DNA of 64,000 nt from positions 1-64,000 of the forward strand of contig JAFTRX010000054.1 of assembly GCA_017462015.1 (NCBI GenBank), read 5' to 3'. The number at the start of each line of letters is the position of its first letter. Position 1 is the first letter of the stretch. Made by a program: the position numbers and the translations under genes. The notes under the pieces were generated by a model. That model did not search any database, had not been told where the DNA came from, and saw only the letters and a list, made by a program, of their open reading frames with translations. Below are positions 13,074-38,515 of the stretch, piece after piece. The stretch is from Lentisphaeria bacterium. Lineage in GTDB: Bacteria > Verrucomicrobiota > Lentisphaeria > Victivallales > Victivallaceae.

Positions 13074-13149
13074 AGGCGTTCGCGTGGGTACATCGGCGCG
13101 CTTTTGGGGTACAGATTGAAAATATTTGTAAAATCAGGTCCGGATACTA

Positions 13150-13178
13150 TTGCATTTGAAAAATTTTTGTGTTATACT
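13150..13178 (+). promoter_or_regulatory. Promoter of the 13227 pseudopilin gene
   Basis: TTGCAT (13150-13155), 17-base spacer, TATACT (13173-13178). The gap 13074-13226 holds nothing else that I can see. Confidence 0.55.
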
Positions 13179-13226
13179 GAAATCGTGTTACTGCTGAACT
13201 ATAAACAAATCAACAGGAGGGGTACG

Positions 13227-14018
13227 ATGAAAACAGAACGCGGAATCCGTAAAAATCATTTCTCTTTTACTTTGATCGAATTGCTGGTGGTTATCGCAAT
13301 TATTGCCATTTTGGCGGCGATTTTGCTGCCGGCACTGCAGAGTGCGCGGGAACGCGGCAAGGCTTCAGGGTGTGTCAACAATCTCAAGCAAATCGGCACA
13401 GCGTTCAACATGTACAGCGATGATTTCGGCGATTGGGTGCTGCCTGCCACCCAGCCGGGAGCTTCTAACTATGAACGCGACTGGTACAAGCATATCAGTA
13501 ATTACAATGGCATTATTGGAAAAAGTTACGGCTTGATTTATTATAAGAACAAAACCGTCGGAACCTTTGTCTGTCCCTCCGAAGGAGTGGCGTTCAACGT
13601 GGATGACACCAATAATTTCTACGGTCACACCCACTACATCATCAACGCGCACTTCTGCGGCGGAAGCTATTCCGGCAATATTCCCAGTTACATGAGAAAA
13701 GCGCGCAAACGTTCTGCCGCACAGAAGCCCTCTCAGGTCATGCTTGTCATGGACAGTAAAACCGGCAACAATTACCGCATCCCCGGCAGCGAAGGTTTCG
13801 CCTACCGCCACGGCAGACCGGATACCCGCAAGCTGAACGCTTCGACCAGTGCTGACGGTGTCGGCAGAGGCAAAATGAATTCGGTCGCCCTTGCCGGAAA
13901 TGTTGTTACTGCCGACTGGAACGAGGTTTTTGATAACTCAGGTTCCCGTTTTTACTGGCAGCAGCGCGGTTATATCCCGACTGATAAACCCGGAGATATG
14001 GGAACTCCTTTGTACTGA
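13227..14018 (+). CDS. Prepilin-type N-terminal cleavage/methylation domain protein
   Basis: A 263-residue protein; ATG 13227 follows AGGAGG, so the in-frame upstream extension is not used. Near the start is a type IV prepilin signal, [18 protein letters not shown], whose glycine-like cleavage position is replaced by Ser before F (HFSFTLIE), followed by [25 protein letters not shown]. This module is multiplied in Lentisphaerota and Planctomycetes as a type II secretion pseudopilin or S-layer-like surface protein. Two Cys and Trp/Tyr-rich loops make up the rest. It stands alone with its own promoter. Confidence 0.88.
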
Positions 14019-23911: not shown

Positions 23912-24577
23912 TTATTCGGCAATGGTGTTGGTGAGGGTGTAGTTAGCATCCTTGCCGGCGAGAACAAAACCAGTGTTGGCTTTGCTGAACCACTTGGCAC
24001 CGTTGAAGCCGCGGGTGGAACCGTCAGCGAACAGGATGTTACCATAGTTGGTGTGGTTGCTCTTGCTGGAAGCAGCGGCGACAGTACCGTCAAGGTCGAA
24101 GGCGATGGCGGATTCAGAACCGTAGTTACCAGCGATGTATCCGGGGATGTAACCGAAAGCCAAGGTGGCAGCGGCGCCGCCGGAAGCATAGGTCAGAGCG
24201 GTGGTACCGGTACCGGCGGAAACGGTGCTGCTCGGGCAGGTGTAGACGCCGTAGTCGGTGAGGTATTCGTTAGCCATCAGGGCGTTCATACCGGCTTCAG
24301 CACCGGCGACTGTACCGATAGCATCTTCGCCGGAGGGGGAGCCAAGAGCGAGGGTACCAGTAGAGATACGGACTTTTCCGGTCGGCGTTTTTTCACGGTT
24401 GTCCTGAGCATACTGGATCAGGGCGTTACCGATCTGTTTCAGGTTGCTGATGCAGGAGCCGCGACGGCCGCGTTCACGTGCAGACTGGAGGGCGGGGAGC
24501 AGCATGGCAGCGAGGATGGCGATGATCGCGATCACGACCAGCAGCTCGATGAGGGTAAAACCACGGGTTTTCTTCAT
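23912..24577 (-). CDS. Prepilin-type pseudopilin with H-X9-DG motif
   Basis: A 221-residue protein. ATG 24577 follows AAAGGAAT, so the longer frame is not used. The start is [20 protein letters not shown], a classical class III signal cleaved after Gly6, then [16 protein letters not shown]. Near the C-terminus [14 protein letters not shown] fits the H-X9-DG signature of PVC surface pseudopilins. The middle is Ala/Gly/Thr/Ser-rich. With its own promoter region, 5-prime hairpin and strong terminator it looks like an abundantly expressed surface subunit. Confidence 0.88.
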
Positions 24578-24600
24578 TTTTTTATTCCTTTCTTTTATTT

Positions 24601-24621
24601 TGCACATGCCTTTGATGTGCA
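24601..24621 (-). promoter_or_regulatory. Inverted repeat in the leader of the pseudopilin gene
   Basis: TGCACAT (24601-24607) and ATGTGCA (24615-24621) form a 7-bp arm with a seven-base loop, 24 bases before the start codon. A TATAAT-like box lies further upstream near 24650. Could be a leader hairpin or an operator. Confidence 0.4.
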
Positions 24622-24753
24622 TATTTTACGTCAAATCCTCTTTGACATGGCTTTATTATACACCTTTAGATGTAAATCGGAATATCTTTTTTATCGACAA
24701 GCTCGTTTTTTTCAACAAAGTTTCATAATGTGAAAGTTTGCCGTATTTTTTGG

Positions 24754-30658: not shown

Positions 30659-32488
30659 TCAGTGTAAATCGGTCAGGTGCAGTATGCCGGGGGCAATATT
30701 GCCGAGGGTCATCCGGTTGGTTATTTTTCCGGCTTCGGTGAATGATTCCGGAGCATCGTGCAGTTCAAGTTTATCCACATTGCCTGCGCACAAGGCGGCG
30801 AACCATGCCGGAACACAGCCGTTGCCGTGAGCTTCGAGAGTAATGCGGTCAACACCGAAAGATTGCAAGAGCTGCAATGCTGAAAGAATATCTTTGATCT
30901 TTCCGCCGAGGATGGTTTCTCCGGTGAGAAATCCCAGTGAAGCGTAGTGGTATTCCGCCTGATAGGGGGCATAGTAATCCTTGAATGCCGGTTGATCGGT
31001 CCCGTCCGGGCGCAGTGCGCCGATGGTACGCATATCAAGGGCATAAACTTCCTCGTCGGTCGGCATCTCGCGGGTGCTGAACTCCTGAATAGTATCCAGA
31101 TTCGGTATGACCAGCCGGACATTGGCGGCGTGTTTCGTGCTGAAGTGGTAATAATCTTTGTCGCCCATGCGGTAGAGAATCGCCATTATCCGGTCTTTTT
31201 CTGTTTCCAGAGCGAAGCGGGACATGATTTTTTCTTCGGTGATACAGATACAGCGCAATACCCGGTAGTGCGGGATGTGATCGTTGAGATGGAAGAACTC
31301 TTTTACCGCCTGCGCCAGTTCCGTTTTACTGCGCTGAGGGCGGGCGGCGGCGATTTTTGCGGCATTTTCAGCGGCGATTTCATGGATGAAGCGGTTGCCG
31401 GGGATGTTGCTGACAGAGTTGTTGCAAACCAGAGTCGTGTCAGCGTGCGGCAGTTCAAAATCCGGTTCTTTTCCGGAAATCTCATTGGAGAAGTGACGGG
31501 TGAGAAATTCATACGTCGCCTCGCGGTCTTCCAGATGATAACCGTGCGGATATTTGCCGATGAACAACTTGGCATCATAGCCCAGAAGTGAGTTTATCTT
31601 TTGCACATCGGCAAAACTTTCCCGGGTTCCCCGGTGGTCAAATACATCATCGATCTGCCCGATGATAAGCGTGTGCCGCGGGTGTGCCAGCAATAAATCT
31701 GTCATTTCCAGACCGTAATGCATCGCCAATGGCGGCACTTGTTCGATGTCCACGGGAAGTTCATTTTCAATATTGCTCTTCCAGGTGGTGATGTAACAGC
31801 AGGGGATCGCCGCCTTCGGGCGCGGGTCACAGGCGGCAGTTAAAGCGGTGAGAGTGCCGCCGCCGGAGTTGCCGGAAATAATCAGGTTCTCAGCATCGAC
31901 TTCCGGGCGGCTCTCAAGATAATCCAACGCGCGTATGCCATCCCACACCCGCCAGGAGCCCAGCCAGTCGCCGTTGAGTGCGAGCTGCCGTCCCATCAGG
32001 TTGTGATTTCCGCACAAACTGCGCAGTACCGGGTTTTTGAACTGAGTATACTGGCGGCGCTCGCCCTGTTCCACCGGGTCGATGATCATGGCGACAAAAC
32101 CTTTCAACGCCAGACCGATGCAGACACTGCGGTATTGGAAAGTGGCTTTGCCGCCGCGGTCATGACCGCAGAAAAAGAGCAGAGTCGGAAGTTTTCCGGA
32201 GAATTTTTCCGGCAGATAAAAGTTGGCAGTGACTGGAAATCCCGGACGGCTGTAAAAGTAGAGATTTTCCACCGTGTAACCGGGGAAGTGATTTATTTTG
32301 ACCGTGACCGCATCCAGCGGAGTCCGTTCCGGAAAGGAGAATATTTTCTGCCACTTCGCCCTGACCGAATCCACATATTTCTGAGCATCTTCTTTTGAAT
32401 TGATACCGGCGATGATCTCCCGGCGTTTCCGGAAATTTTCCCGCGCCAGAGAGACAAAAAATTCATTTACACAATTCCCGTAATGCAT
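30659..32488 (-). CDS. Alpha/beta hydrolase, acetylxylan-esterase-like
   Basis: A 609-residue protein; GAGGAG precedes ATG 32488. No signal peptide. Triad candidates: Ser in the nucleophile elbow IISGNSGGGTL (about residue 208), Asp in IGQIDDVFDHRG, and His in KYPHGYHLED. The substrate-side motif TLLFFCGHDRGGK and the large size resemble the acetyl-esterase (CE-type) multidomain family. The C-terminal 230 residues are a second helix-rich domain with no clear match. Last gene of the minus-strand run from 36022. Confidence 0.75.
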   Translation of the reverse strand: MHYGNCVNEFFVSLARENFRKRREIIAGINSKEDAQKYVDSVRAKWQKIFSFPERTPLDAVTVKINHFPGYTVENLYFYSRPGFPVTANFYLPEKFSGKLPTLLFFCGHDRGGKATFQYRSVCIGLALKGFVAMIIDPVEQGERRQYTQFKNPVLRSLCGNHNLMGRQLALNGDWLGSWRVWDGIRALDYLESRPEVDAENLIISGNSGGGTLTALTAACDPRPKAAIPCCYITTWKSNIENELPVDIEQVPPLAMHYGLEMTDLLLAHPRHTLIIGQIDDVFDHRGTRESFADVQKINSLLGYDAKLFIGKYPHGYHLEDREATYEFLTRHFSNEISGKEPDFELPHADTTLVCNNSVSNIPGNRFIHEIAAENAAKIAAARPQRSKTELAQAVKEFFHLNDHIPHYRVLRCICITEEKIMSRFALETEKDRIMAILYRMGDKDYYHFSTKHAANVRLVIPNLDTIQEFSTREMPTDEEVYALDMRTIGALRPDGTDQPAFKDYYAPYQAEYHYASLGFLTGETILGGKIKDILSALQLLQSFGVDRITLEAHGNGCVPAWFAALCAGNVDKLELHDAPESFTEAGKITNRMTLGNIAPGILHLTDLH

Positions 32489-32505: not shown

Positions 32506-33810
32506 TTACATGTAAAGTACCGGTTCAACGATCCCGATATGTGGAATATCAAAAGCGATCATGCCTTTTTCGTTGGTATAGGCCTGGGCTCTGGAGGCAA
32601 AAATCAAAGTTCCGGCATCTTTCAGTTTGAGGTCAAAGTTCTCTGCCGGAGAACCCGGACCGAAGCGATGCTCCGCCTGCCGGATGCCGCCATACTCCAT
32701 GTCGAGCGAAAAATTTTCCTGCCACTTGGGGGATGTTTCCACGGAAAAATCCAAGTCGATATGGGGCAGAAAACTCGTTTTGTGCGCCGCCAAACCGGCG
32801 GTGAAGGTCAAACGGGAAAATATTCCGCCGGTAAAAAATTTCATCCCGGAGTGACCGGTAAGTCCGAAACCGTTGAGAAAATCCTGTTCGCCATCTTGGG
32901 TCAGAAGTCGCAATTTCTGCATGGTTCCGTCAAAACAGAAGCCATCATTGCCGCAGTGGGCGTAAATATCCGGGTGGTGATAGGCACAATAAAGTTCCGT
33001 CAACGGTATTGCTTGCAACGCGTCAACTTCACTGGCATTGAATTTGCCGTAAGCTATGGAAAATGCGGTGTGCCACGCCTGAGCCGTAAGCTCCACCGCC
33101 TGCCGGGCCGGAGTTCTCAAGATTTCGCGGCACAGTTCCCGGTCTTTTGCGTATCCGGCGGCCATCAACTGCGGTATCAAACTCCGGGAGGCATGAGCAT
33201 ATTTCAATGCGGTATTGGCAAGGTGAAATGCGGCAGTGGCAATATCACATCCGGCAATGACCGGAACTTTCCCGCCGAGGTCAGCGGCAATTTCGTAACC
33301 GGATGCTGCACCGCCGAAATGTCCGGCTTCCGGGTGGGGAAAGAGCTGATAACGTTCCACACTGCCGAGGTTGTGTGACGGCGGAAGCAGATCCTGAAGA
33401 AAATGGCCCAGCACTCCGGCGCGGCGGCAGAAGCCGGGAATATTGTTGTTGCGCAGTTCATTTACCGCATTTTGCAGAAGATACGCGGTCAGGGTGACAC
33501 ACATTTCCGGGTCGACCGGATTTCCCGACTGGTATGCGCCGTCACCGTTGCGATCCGGCAGCATGTGCGGCAGAAGTCTGCCGTTTTCTGCCAATGCCAG
33601 ATGACGGAAACGCGGGTCGTAAAGCCAATCCATCAGCAGACAATCGTATGCCAGTTGTTCTGCGGAATTTGCACACGGCGGAAGCAGCGGCAGTTCTTCG
33701 CCTTGCGGCGAAGAACTCAACAGCTGCTGTTCCCATTCCGGAAGCAGAGCTGCTGCCTGTATCCCCAGACGGGCATGGCTGAAAAAACGGTCATCGCAAC
33801 AAAAACGCAT
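32506..33810 (-). CDS. Zinc-dependent phospholipase C / P1-nuclease-like protein (paralogue 1)
   Basis: A 434-residue protein without signal peptide, starting eight bases after the preceding stop with no good ribosome site (coupled translation). The motif GHFLQDLLPPSH places His136, Asp140 and His146 in the H-x3-D-x5-H order of zinc phospholipase C and P1 nuclease metal sites, and FSHARLG near the N-terminus supplies another His. A region AWHTAFSIAYG is shared with the protein at 34715. The C-terminal part is beta-rich. The family is reported mostly for secreted enzymes, so a cytoplasmic copy in a sugar operon is unusual. Confidence 0.6.
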   Translation of the reverse strand: MRFCCDDRFFSHARLGIQAAALLPEWEQQLLSSSPQGEELPLLPPCANSAEQLAYDCLLMDWLYDPRFRHLALAENGRLLPHMLPDRNGDGAYQSGNPVDPEMCVTLTAYLLQNAVNELRNNNIPGFCRRAGVLGHFLQDLLPPSHNLGSVERYQLFPHPEAGHFGGAASGYEIAADLGGKVPVIAGCDIATAAFHLANTALKYAHASRSLIPQLMAAGYAKDRELCREILRTPARQAVELTAQAWHTAFSIAYGKFNASEVDALQAIPLTELYCAYHHPDIYAHCGNDGFCFDGTMQKLRLLTQDGEQDFLNGFGLTGHSGMKFFTGGIFSRLTFTAGLAAHKTSFLPHIDLDFSVETSPKWQENFSLDMEYGGIRQAEHRFGPGSPAENFDLKLKDAGTLIFASRAQAYTNEKGMIAFDIPHIGIVEPVLYM

Positions 33811-33818
33811 ATCAGGAT

Positions 33819-34697
33819 TCAGTCTGCCAGCAGTTTGTTGAAAGTTTCGACCAGACGGCGCACGGAGTAGCCGTGGCGGAACATGCTGACTTCACTTTGC
33901 ATGGTAAGCAGACGCGGCGCGCTCTTGATTTTGGCAATAAGCTCTTTCCATTCGATACGGCCGTCACCGGGCATCTTGTGGGCATCGGAATAGCCGTCAT
34001 TGTCGTGCAGATGGCAGGTGACGATGTGCGGAAGCAGATCACCGATGGCATCCGGGTAGCATTCGACCACATCGCCCCAGGCTTCATCCATGGCAGCAAA
34101 ATATTTCTCCCGGCTCTTGCCGGGGAAGTCCGCCATCAGACAGGCGTGACCGGAATCGTAACACACGCCCAGATGGGGGTTGTCGAAACAACTCATGTAA
34201 TAAAGTACCTCTCCGGGGGTGTTGGAGCGTTCATAACTGTTTTCGATGGCAAGGATGATGTCCAGTTGTTCGGCTTCTTCCAGCAAAATACCGATGGAAT
34301 CGACAACGTAGGGGCGCAGAACATCGTTGGGAGTTTTGTAAACAACGCTTTCGTAAGCGCCCATGTGAACGGTGCAGGTCTTACAGCCGAGTTCGGCGGC
34401 GTATGCCATGGCGCGCTTCTGATCTTCCAGCATCCATTTGCGGCGCCCCTTTTCCGCGCAGCAGAGGTCGTAAGGCTGACCGAAAGGAAGGTGCGCATCC
34501 CCGAAGGTGATACCGTGTACCCGGGAGAGCCGCTTGAATTTGGTGAATTCCCACGGTTCTGTGAGTGCTTTTTTGAGGGTGGTTTCGGTGAGGACAAAGT
34601 TGGAAAAACCGTTGTCCTTGAATTCGTTGATCAAATTGGTATAGGTATTTTCCGGCAGAGCCATCCAGTCGTAATAGTGTGAAAGCGGTACAGACAT
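33819..34697 (-). CDS. Xylose-isomerase-like TIM barrel (sugar phosphate isomerase/epimerase)
   Basis: A 292-residue cytoplasmic protein. Landmarks: CKTCTVHMGAYES, IILAIENSYERSN, GVCYDSGHACLM (metal site), VTCHLHDNDG, KMPGDGRIEWKEL and LTMQSEVSMFRHG. Between the two phospholipase C-like genes (gaps 8 and 17 bases), in the same unit. Substrate unknown. Confidence 0.85.
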   Translation of the reverse strand: MSVPLSHYYDWMALPENTYTNLINEFKDNGFSNFVLTETTLKKALTEPWEFTKFKRLSRVHGITFGDAHLPFGQPYDLCCAEKGRRKWMLEDQKRAMAYAAELGCKTCTVHMGAYESVVYKTPNDVLRPYVVDSIGILLEEAEQLDIILAIENSYERSNTPGEVLYYMSCFDNPHLGVCYDSGHACLMADFPGKSREKYFAAMDEAWGDVVECYPDAIGDLLPHIVTCHLHDNDGYSDAHKMPGDGRIEWKELIAKIKSAPRLLTMQSEVSMFRHGYSVRRLVETFNKLLAD

Positions 34698-34714
34698 GAT
34701 TTATCTCCTGCTGA

Positions 34715-36022
34715 TTAAAGTTTTGATTTTAAAACCGGGTTGAGCCAAACGGAGGAAGATTTTCCGTCACCACCGGCAGTGAGCAAAGAGAGGGTGCGGC
34801 ACTCCGGCGGCAAGGCAGTTTTGAAGCGGATAACCCCTCCGTCTCTTGTCGTTTTCCCGGAGGCGAGAAGCTGGACATCGCTGTCACAGCACCAGATGGC
34901 AAAGACCGCTTCACAATTATTTACCGATGCCGGATGGATACCGGCAGTAACTTCCAGTTCGCCATAAATATCTCCGGGAACAGTAAACGAGATAACGCTG
35001 TATGCTCCGGCGGCAAAGCCGTTGCCGGTAAGTTCGGTCTCTCCATCGCGCAGAACCAGCGGCAGCGGATCGCCGTTGGCATCGTATGCACAATTGACCG
35101 ATGCTTCAAACGGATACGGATTGGTAGACATATTGGCGCGCGGCGGATCGCCTTCGGGATAGAGATTCTTGTAAAACGGGATTCCGGCGGCAATATATTT
35201 CAGCCGGTCAAAGCGTTCATCGTAAGCGGTGATGACCGGATGTTTGACCAAACTTATTTCATTGAAGCGATCATGGCACCATGACGGTATCCGGTTTGAA
35301 GCAATGACAAATGCCGTGTGCCAGAAACTGGCAGTAAGATGGATGGCACGGGCGTTCCACTTTTGCATTATCCGGCTGACTTTACGGTCATGACCGGCGA
35401 TGATGCCCTGACACAATGGAATCATATCGGCAGTGATTTTGTCCATATTGGCGAGAATTTTTTCACCCAGCAAATATGCCGCTTCATCCACCGTCCGTCC
35501 CAGAAGTTCCGGTGGAGCTTTGACGGCGGCGAGGTCAATGGGCCAACTGTCCATTATCCGGTGCATGAAGACAAGTTTTTTGCCATTGGCAGGAAAGAGA
35601 CGGTTGAGCAGAAGATTGTTGAAGACATGCCCGGGATTGGAACAATCCTGAATGACATGGGCGCCACTTCCGGCAAAGCGTACTGATTCAGTAACATCTT
35701 GCTTTGCAATAAAGTGGACGACTTTCTCCATGTAGTAACGCAAAGCGTAGTGGAGTTTTTCCGGATCGGGCACATCGCCGAAGGTGGCTCCGCGCCAATC
35801 TTTATCCTGCGGTCCATGGGGGGCAACACGACCGTTTGCCATTACGCAGTAACGGGCGTAGAACGGTTCTTTCTCCGGGGCTTCCCATTGGGAACCGAGG
35901 TGCAGATCCGGGTAATCGCAGCAATGAGCGAGTTCCGCTTCGGCATCTTTCCAGAACTTTTGTTCACCGGGTTTCAAGAGTTGAAAGGCGCGTGCGCCCA
36001 TTTTATCATGCAGACCGGACAT
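34715..36022 (-). CDS. Zinc phospholipase C / P1-nuclease-like protein with NPCBM-like C-terminus (paralogue 2)
   Basis: A 435-residue protein; GGAGG precedes ATG 36022. GSGAHVIQDCSNPGH gives His122, Asp126 and His132, the same H-x3-D-x5-H spacing as in the 32506 protein, and FWHTAFVIASNRIP aligns with its AWHTAFSIAYG. No signal peptide. From about residue 325 a beta-sandwich (YSVISFTVPGDIYGELEVTA, AVFAIWCCDSDVQLL) resembles NPCBM-type carbohydrate-binding modules. First gene of its transcription unit, behind a promoter at 36062-36089. Confidence 0.6.
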   Translation of the reverse strand: MSGLHDKMGARAFQLLKPGEQKFWKDAEAELAHCCDYPDLHLGSQWEAPEKEPFYARYCVMANGRVAPHGPQDKDWRGATFGDVPDPEKLHYALRYYMEKVVHFIAKQDVTESVRFAGSGAHVIQDCSNPGHVFNNLLLNRLFPANGKKLVFMHRIMDSWPIDLAAVKAPPELLGRTVDEAAYLLGEKILANMDKITADMIPLCQGIIAGHDRKVSRIMQKWNARAIHLTASFWHTAFVIASNRIPSWCHDRFNEISLVKHPVITAYDERFDRLKYIAAGIPFYKNLYPEGDPPRANMSTNPYPFEASVNCAYDANGDPLPLVLRDGETELTGNGFAAGAYSVISFTVPGDIYGELEVTAGIHPASVNNCEAVFAIWCCDSDVQLLASGKTTRDGGVIRFKTALPPECRTLSLLTAGGDGKSSSVWLNPVLKSKL

Positions 36023-36137: not shown

Positions 36138-37700
36138 TTAAAAGTTGGTACTTCCCGGCGCCACGTCAATGCCGTCGACGGTGACACTCTCAGAAGAGAT
36201 ATTCAACACCGTAAGTTTCCGGTCGGCGGCGGCTTTTATCACCCGGTCAAACATGGTGCTGTCGTTGAGGATGACCAGCACTTCTGACTCGTTTTCAACC
36301 GTGGCGGCGCCGACGTCGCAGGAGTTGAAGTAAAATTGCCAGTGACCGTGGTTGAGAAGCTGCTTTTTGGCGTGATAAAGGTCAAGGTAATATTTGACAA
36401 TGGAAATGTGTTCCGCCGGAAGCGTGTTGACATCCATTGAAAGCATGGGGACGGCCAGCATCATCACCATCATGTGGCGCGCCACATTTTCCGGGTATTC
36501 ATCCTCTGCCCAGTATGCCGGATCGGCGTGGACGGGAACACCGTCACCCAGCGACAGACGGATGTCCGCCAACCGCCGGAAGTTGAACGCCCAGTCAAAG
36601 GGAACGTCTCCGGCGCGGAACTGAGTGGCAAAAGGAAGCATACCGATAGTGGCGTATCCCTGACGGAATTCGATCAGAGTTTCCGGAGCTTTATCGCGCA
36701 GACCGGAGCTGAGTTTTTCGATTAGATACCCGGTATTGCGCCCGATGGGGGCTTCGACGGAGGGGTGCACCACATCGAGAAAGTCGATCTTCAATCCGTC
36801 CAGACCGTTATCTTTGGCAAGCGCTATCAGTTTTTCCGAGATGTGATCCACCGCATCGCGGTGTGACACATCCAGATGAGAACATCCTTCGTGAACACGC
36901 TCAAACACCCACTCCGGATGGTTGCGGTAAAGTTCGCTGTCCACGCCGGCAAAGTGCGGAGCGACCCAGAGCAGATACTTCAAACCGATTTGTTGAACGG
37001 TTTTGACATGCTCTTTGAAGTTGGGAAACTTGCGCGGGGAAATATTCCAGTCGCCGATGGTATTGTACCAGTTGGGCAGAGTTTCCGGAGTTACCCGCTT
37101 GTCCTCATCGTAACACCATCCGTCATCGACGATAAGGGTGGAGAATCCCAGCGCCTTGACTTTGCGCATTTGTTTTTCTATCCATTTGCTGTTCACTTCG
37201 CCGTGGACAGCGTACCAGGTGCAGAATACCGGTTCCCACGCTCCGGCAGGAAAGTTCAGTTTTTCCGGCATGACACTTTTCCGCCAATCGGCAACGCTCT
37301 CCTGAAGCGAAACATCTTCCCGGCGGTCAACGGTCAACACAAACGGGGTCTCCCCGGTCACGGTGAACGTTATATCGTAAGTGCAGTTCTGCTGGTTGAG
37401 CGCCGCAGAAAAACAGGTGTCATCACGCAGATTGTCCGTGGCGACGGAACAACGCAGTTCCCGGGCGCGGTTGAAGAAGGCGAGGAACGGCATCCCCCGG
37501 TTGAAAGCGGAGGTGTACTCCACTTTCCACGGCAGACGGAGCTGAAACTCCGACATGTTGCAGTACCACACGCCGTGGATATCGACGATGGGCAGTGCCA
37601 TTTTGATTACGGTTTTGTTTCCGGCGGGGGTGATGTTGAAAAGATTCAACGCTCCGTACGCAGCTTCAAAACATTCGGCATTATTGACAAAAATTTTCAT
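36138..37700 (-). CDS. GH36-family alpha-galactosidase-like enzyme
   Basis: A 520-residue cytoplasmic protein; ATG 37700 lies five bases after the upstream stop. The barrel carries TWYAVHGEVNSKWIEKQ, STLIVDDGWCYDED, the nucleophile in GLKIDFLDVVHPS, EFRQGYATIGM and the RAGDVPFDWAFNFRR acid/base region, the order of GH36/GH27-type enzymes. The N-terminal domain is a beta sandwich. Without a signal peptide it should hydrolyse an imported galactoside or related sugar. Second gene of a two-gene unit. Confidence 0.78.
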   Translation of the reverse strand: MKIFVNNAECFEAAYGALNLFNITPAGNKTVIKMALPIVDIHGVWYCNMSEFQLRLPWKVEYTSAFNRGMPFLAFFNRARELRCSVATDNLRDDTCFSAALNQQNCTYDITFTVTGETPFVLTVDRREDVSLQESVADWRKSVMPEKLNFPAGAWEPVFCTWYAVHGEVNSKWIEKQMRKVKALGFSTLIVDDGWCYDEDKRVTPETLPNWYNTIGDWNISPRKFPNFKEHVKTVQQIGLKYLLWVAPHFAGVDSELYRNHPEWVFERVHEGCSHLDVSHRDAVDHISEKLIALAKDNGLDGLKIDFLDVVHPSVEAPIGRNTGYLIEKLSSGLRDKAPETLIEFRQGYATIGMLPFATQFRAGDVPFDWAFNFRRLADIRLSLGDGVPVHADPAYWAEDEYPENVARHMMVMMLAVPMLSMDVNTLPAEHISIVKYYLDLYHAKKQLLNHGHWQFYFNSCDVGAATVENESEVLVILNDSTMFDRVIKAAADRKLTVLNISSESVTVDGIDVAPGSTNF

Positions 37701-37705
37701 GCAAC

Positions 37706-38515
37706 TCAAAGCGCTTTCATTTTAATAAAGTTTTCTTCGATCGCGGCAAGACACTCCGCGGCGGGGGCGTTGAAACGGCTGGTTTCGTAGTTGAATGGCC
37801 CCGTGTAACCGATCTCACGCAGCGCCTGAATGGCGGCTTTGAAGTCGATCACACCCTTGAACGGCATCCAGTGGCGCTCATCAACACCGTCATAATCGCA
37901 GATATGGAGCGTGAAAAGTTTTTCACCCAGTTCGCGGATGATGGCAGGTATCTGCGGATACTGATCCATGATGTGATTGACATCCAGACAGACACCGAAG
38001 CGGTCGCTCATGCCGTCCAGCATTCTGTTCATATCCGACATGGTGTTACCCATGCACAACCGGGGAAGAAATTCCAGTGCGATTTTCATGTCGTGCAAAG
38101 CAAGTTCTCCTTCGATTTCCAGCATGCTTTTGCGGAGCTGGGCGATGTAGACATCCCGTTTGGTCTGGTCGATGGGTTCGGTACTGGGGTGGATTATCAA
38201 CAGTTTTGAACCGAGCCGGGACGCTTCGTGGATATGGACACGCAAACGGCTCATCGCCCGGAGCCGGATGACCTCATCAGGATCGGCGATGTCGTCGATC
38301 TGTTTGAAAGGGACATGGTAGGAGATCACTTTTTTCCCGGTACGATCCAGCATTTTGATGAAGGCAGTGCGGATTTCGCCGTCATAATCGGTCCAGAAGC
38401 ACCACGGACTCCATTCAAAGGTCGAAACGGAAGATTTTTCCAGAAGTTCAATGGTCTCGTAATCCATCACACCGGTGATGGCATCGAGTGAAACGCCAAG
38501 TCCAAGATCAAACAT
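37706..38515 (-). CDS. Xylose-isomerase-like TIM barrel (sugar phosphate isomerase/epimerase)
   Basis: A 269-residue cytoplasmic protein. Landmarks: KLLIIHPSTEP, IALEFLPRLCMGN, GVCLDVNHIMDQ (metal site), TLHICDYDG, HWMPFKGVIDF, and a late FNYETSRF. It precedes the GH36 gene by five bases and is the third member of this fold in the window. Confidence 0.83.
   Translation of the reverse strand: MFDLGLGVSLDAITGVMDYETIELLEKSSVSTFEWSPWCFWTDYDGEIRTAFIKMLDRTGKKVISYHVPFKQIDDIADPDEVIRLRAMSRLRVHIHEASRLGSKLLIIHPSTEPIDQTKRDVYIAQLRKSMLEIEGELALHDMKIALEFLPRLCMGNTMSDMNRMLDGMSDRFGVCLDVNHIMDQYPQIPAIIRELGEKLFTLHICDYDGVDERHWMPFKGVIDFKAAIQALREIGYTGPFNYETSRFNAPAAECLAAIEENFIKMKAL

Follow-up and report, generated by a model that had tools for sequence, protein, structure and literature searches.

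The question raised by this locus is what two paralogous proteins of a phospholipase C (PLC)/P1-nuclease type, encoded on either side of a sugar isomerase, do inside the cell. The known enzymes of the PLC/P1 type are secreted, and their maturation exposes a metal-binding N-terminal residue. The window analysed here, a 64,000-nucleotide stretch of contig JAFTRX010000054.1 from a gut Lentisphaeria bacterium, carries a tightly packed minus-strand cluster of six genes in the order iso2, GH36-like glycosidase, B, iso1, A, and esterase. The GH36, esterase, and two TIM-barrel neighbours named in a first-pass annotation were all recovered by Pfam as one GH36-like, one AXE1-like, and two AP_endonuc_2 proteins, and all six genes are kept in the nearest relative, L024, a Lentisphaeria MAG from sheep colon. 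The cluster in the window contains no HAD phosphatase and no transporter. Its features are as follows:

30659-32488, minus strand: acetyl-xylan-esterase-like alpha/beta hydrolase of 609 aa, closing the cluster (AXE1, 2.2e-08; PDB match)
32506-33810, minus strand: protein A, 434 aa, paralogue of B, with the two-domain fold common to both
33819-34697, minus strand: iso1, cytoplasmic xylose-isomerase-like TIM barrel (Pfam AP_endonuc_2, 3.3e-24; nearest solved structure 3wqo)
34715-36022, minus strand: protein B, 435 aa, PLC/P1-fold domain (residues ~1-255) and CBM51/NPCBM-like sandwich (~320-433)
36008-36022, minus strand: start region of B, M-S-G-L-H, with the start codon 4 codons ahead of the first ligand His
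36138-37709, minus strand: GH36-like alpha-galactosidase-type glycosidase with a Melibiase domain (Pfam, 9.5e-19; PDB matches are alpha-galactosidases)
37706-38515, minus strand: iso2, TIM-barrel isomerase/epimerase related to IolO/IolI (Pfam AP_endonuc_2, 1e-32; PDB match)

The IolO model matched iso2 at 2.8e-15, which is under its cut-off. By eye, the C-terminal part of the esterase, past the AXE1-like domain, resembles a second alpha/beta-hydrolase-type segment.

The open reading frames of A and B lie exactly where the first-pass annotation had placed a pair of paralogues around a sugar isomerase, and their relationship was borne out by 24% identity over ~310 residues (E=2e-15) and by a tree of the 40 family members gathered here, in which the A and B clades are sisters (support 96/91). 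Searched singly, A and B gave no usable match in Pfam, NCBIfam, PHROGs, or PDB sequences and fell below every Pfam and NCBIfam cut-off; neither matched NPCBM (PF08305) or Zn_dep_PLPC (PF00882), a PF00882 search of their own genome returned none, and a search of a plasmid collection gave no match. A hit of B to Stealth_CR2 (E 0.0043, far below cut-off) was dismissed as chance.

Confident AlphaFold2 models were obtained for both proteins (pLDDT 90.9 for A and 91.5 for B; pTM 0.92 each), with residues 1-4 of A below a pLDDT of 50. Foldseek found the all-helical PLC/P1 fold in each, the N-terminal half matching Bacillus cereus and clostridial PLC and the C-terminal half CBM51 (NPCBM). For A, the matches were CBM51 7js4 (3.6e-8), clostridial PLC 1ca1 (6.8e-6), and B. 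cereus PLC 2huc (9e-4); for B, they were CBM51 2vmh (2.4e-5) and B. cereus PLC 1ah7 (9.6e-4, TM 0.59 on target). Against 2vmg, the C-terminal domain gave a TM of 0.74-0.79 on target. The PLC/P1 fold had been proposed beforehand, with an unrelated fold named as its refutation, and it is PLC that Foldseek returned and the ligand motif of PLC that the family profile aligned. The NPCBM-like sandwich had been assigned to one of the two proteins; the sandwich itself stands, but the models place the CBM51/NPCBM type in both. Sequence and models together thus support A and B as a putative zinc domain of PLC/P1-nuclease fold fused to a CBM51 (NPCBM)-like domain of sugar-binding type. In fold, this C-terminal domain is like the CBM51/NPCBM modules of C. 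perfringens GH95, of ZmpB, and of S. pneumoniae GH98; those modules sit on glycosidases or proteases, whereas the module of A and B sits on an intracellular PLC-fold domain.

The 40 members were the basis for the tree and the ligand counts. A single-protein search of the phylum gave matches in 18/289 genomes, and the family profile matched far more, although the weaker of these hits extend over the CBM domain only. Among PDB sequences, the profile matched CBM51 2vmh at 3.9e-11 and B. cereus PLC weakly (E ~0.01) in the motif region only, where H-x3-D-x5-H is in register with PLC H118/D122/H128. In Pfam searches at E up to 0.1, NPCBM (PF08305) was matched in the C-terminal domain of 26 of the 40 members (best 1.9e-23) and Zn_dep_PLPC (PF00882) in the N-terminal domain of 15, the best of these at E 1.1e-4 and 22.6 bits, where the cut-off is 26.8. 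In the profile search suggested at first pass, PF00882 thus reaches 15/40 members below cut-off, A and B not among them, and S1-P1 nuclease (PF02265) reaches 0/40. No description of a PLC-CBM51/NPCBM fusion, or of a Lentisphaerota PLC, was found in the literature, and this family of Lentisphaerota/Verrucomicrobiota proteins is undescribed. It represents a branch, probably one that cleaves phosphodiesters, of a fold already known from enzymes, and not an enzyme of a new kind.

The H-x3-D-x5-H motif and the WHTAF helix reported earlier are present in both proteins, the motif at H136/D140/H146 in A and H122/D126/H132 in B. Across the 40 members both His residues of the motif are invariant, and the Asp is present in 38 and replaced by Glu in two. 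The pair with Glu (L058:14749-16035 and L059:9399-10754) is sister to the A clade and retains HxxxD. The side chains that bind zinc in PLC/P1 enzymes are, in order, H, D, H, H, D, H, H, and E/D, and each of the eight has an equivalent at the expected place in B, namely H5, D39, H69, H122, D126, H132, H154, and D158. A retains H12, D61, H82, H136, D140, and H146, and the Glu of HxxxE is present as well, but Ala stands in place of the zinc-2 His (H154 in B). The alignment supports a predicted ligand set of PLC/P1 type, which B has in full and A only in part. The same His is Ser, Lys, and Thr in the A-type genes from L024, L054, and L075, respectively, and it is also gone from a separate clade (L073, L081, L082, L085, L086, L090, L091, and L023), indicating that the zinc-2 site was lost at least twice; the ligands of zinc sites 1 and 3 were retained where this happened. 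Although the 40 members share only ~20% identity, essentially every one of them has equivalents of H5, D39, H69, H122, D126 (or E), and H132; that of H69 is shifted in the alignment of some members yet present in nearly all, with L080 as the clear exception. In the motif the two proteins match, as noted at first pass, but they are not two equivalent enzymes, because the predicted zinc cluster of A is incomplete, and paralogues A and B, judged by their residues, have no single intact metal site in common. Compared with L024, both genes show purifying selection (dN/dS 0.15 for A and 0.085 for B). A third paralogue in the source genome (L073:9820-11001, plus strand, contig C52) belongs to the clade that lacks the zinc-2 HxxxE pair.

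An N-terminal hydrophobic segment was looked for in A and B and was absent, in agreement with the earlier statement that they lack a signal peptide, and a GGAGG Shine-Dalgarno sequence lies directly upstream of the ATG of B. The sequences therefore support a cytoplasmic location for both. The Trp at the mature N-terminus of S1 nuclease and of Listeria PLC touches the metal cluster (PMC5201275, PMC10576769), and in the Listeria enzyme the exact position of the N-terminus is essential (PMC10576769). In a secreted sister clade of the family, the predicted signal-peptide cut falls directly before WGEPH or a close variant, which leaves four residues between the end of the leader and the first ligand His. 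Of the 31 non-secreted members, 27, B included, have a start codon 4-6 codons ahead of this His, and a Shine-Dalgarno-like sequence was found at 19 of these 27 starts. The four exceptions are A, in which the start is 11 codons before its first ligand His, its orthologues in L024 and L054, and L059. This correlation fits a model in which the N-terminal ligand would be produced by the translation start instead of by removal of a signal peptide. A tight N-terminus by itself is not rare among cytoplasmic proteins, and other causes for it exist.

Given its complete predicted ligand set and a start codon at the Trp1 position, B is most likely an active zinc phosphodiesterase. The best explanation overall, to which we assign a probability of roughly 0.55, is that B works inside the cell as a zinc-dependent enzyme that cleaves a phosphodiester containing a sugar, with A as a metal-depleted partner or an enzyme of altered specificity. 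Phosphodiester hydrolysis by B, a sugar in its substrate, and the role of A as a partner are all inferred under this reading. In the proposed mechanism, the C-terminal domain would hold a galactose-type or related sugar, while the zinc cluster, in which Asp39 would correspond to Asp55 of PLC, would hydrolyse the phosphodiester of an imported sugar-containing compound. The esterase may remove acyl groups and the GH36-like enzyme alpha-galactosyl groups, and the TIM barrels could isomerise the sugar set free. A would most likely be a metal-depleted partner of B, as suggested by its lost zinc-2 His, its extra N-terminal residues, and the purifying selection on it, or else an enzyme with altered specificity. 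A fuller version, in which a cytoplasmic PLC/P1-fold family takes its zinc-binding N-terminus from the translation start, holds sugar phosphodiesters with its CBM51-like domain, and works as a catalytic/metal-depleted A/B heterodimer, is offered tentatively and is doubtful as a whole.

The alternative that survives best, although we consider it unlikely, is that these are non-catalytic glycan-binding proteins in which the PLC fold is a scaffold and the CBM51-like domain the active part; they might then sense sugars or help to assemble the enzymes encoded next to them. The presence of a CBM-like domain in most members is consistent with this, as is the absence of the zinc-2 HxxxE His from A and the L073/L023 clade, which shows that loss of a metal site is tolerated in parts of the family. 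A scaffold, however, needs none of the six ligands that persist in essentially every member despite such low identity, and both the complete ligands of B and its low dN/dS argue against this alternative.

An intracellular S1/P1-type nuclease or nucleotidase is a distinctly poorer candidate. The S1/P1 family shares with A and B the superfamily fold and the type of zinc ligands, its principle of an N-terminal zinc ligand (PMC5201275) may hold for them too, and P1 nuclease appeared in the profile search at E 0.49. The A/B family differs from it in matching PF02265 in none of the 40 members and in having glycosidases, isomerases, and esterases as neighbours with no nucleotide enzymes; Foldseek prefers PLC, and a sugar-binding-type domain is fused on. 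Comparably improbable is a genuine phospholipase C with lipids, either of the cell itself or taken up, as its substrates; in favour of it, PC-preferring PLCs are the closest solved structures of the N-terminal domain. The B. cereus enzyme (1AH7) and PF00882 resemble A and B in N-domain fold, in H-x3-D-x5-H, and in the early His, Asp, and His, and share the HxxxE/D ligands with B, while A has no His there; unlike A and B, which are cytoplasmic, lie below PF00882 detection, and are fused to a CBM51-like domain within sugar clusters, they are secreted and N-terminally processed. The clostridial two-domain PLC has the same layout, a PLC domain followed by a beta-sandwich, but its C-terminal domain is of the membrane-binding PLAT/C2 type, whereas that of A and B is CBM51/NPCBM-like and secretion is lacking. 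A cytosolic lipase would, moreover, endanger the cell's own membrane, and the surrounding genes are sugar-related.

Elsewhere, genes for GH2, GH123, enolase-superfamily, TIM-barrel, and HAD proteins and, by eye, GH29-like proteins lie near other members. The glycoside-cleaving option raised at first pass gained nothing beyond this neighbourhood and the GH36-like gene of the cluster, and it is very improbable, as the ligand set is of phosphoesterase type and we know of no glycosidase with a PLC/P1 fold. The preferred reading of B as a sugar phosphodiesterase would fit the enrichment of HAD phosphatase-type genes near members (9/257 near versus 1/204 distant genes, p=0.025), with the product then dephosphorylated, a modest enrichment that is no more than suggestive, as the loci are partly related. 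In G270, A-type and B-type genes are directly adjacent, 19 bp apart. In G321, which belongs to a different family of the same order (L074, L075), B adjoins an iso1 homologue (46%) and the A-type gene adjoins iso1-like and esterase homologues (35-36%). Homologues of iso1 elsewhere are mostly not beside family members, so the isomerase link is limited to certain lineages, and iso1 neighbourhoods in 14 other genomes indicated no single substrate. An alkaline phosphatase gene (L119:8342-9673) adjoins an iso1 homologue in G031. A conserved gene neighbour was sought across 38 loci and none was found, with pseudopilins alone recurring (28 genes in 20 regions); the window itself has pseudopilin-like genes at 23912-24622 and 13104-14018.

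Under the phosphodiesterase reading, the locus points to breakdown of sugar phosphodiesters in gut Lentisphaerota that current annotation would miss, since proteins of the A/B type reach no family model. The start codon at the cut position suggests a simple way to move this fold into the cell with the metal site kept. A second, secreted family, which starts with WGxGHEDH and has H-x3-D-x5-H (L069:10419-12113, L089:4844-6541, and L068:10907-12490), adjoins the main-family members in L068, L069, and L089, and its N-terminal half aligns to the PLC-like domain (hhalign probability 93.6, E 2.1e-7).
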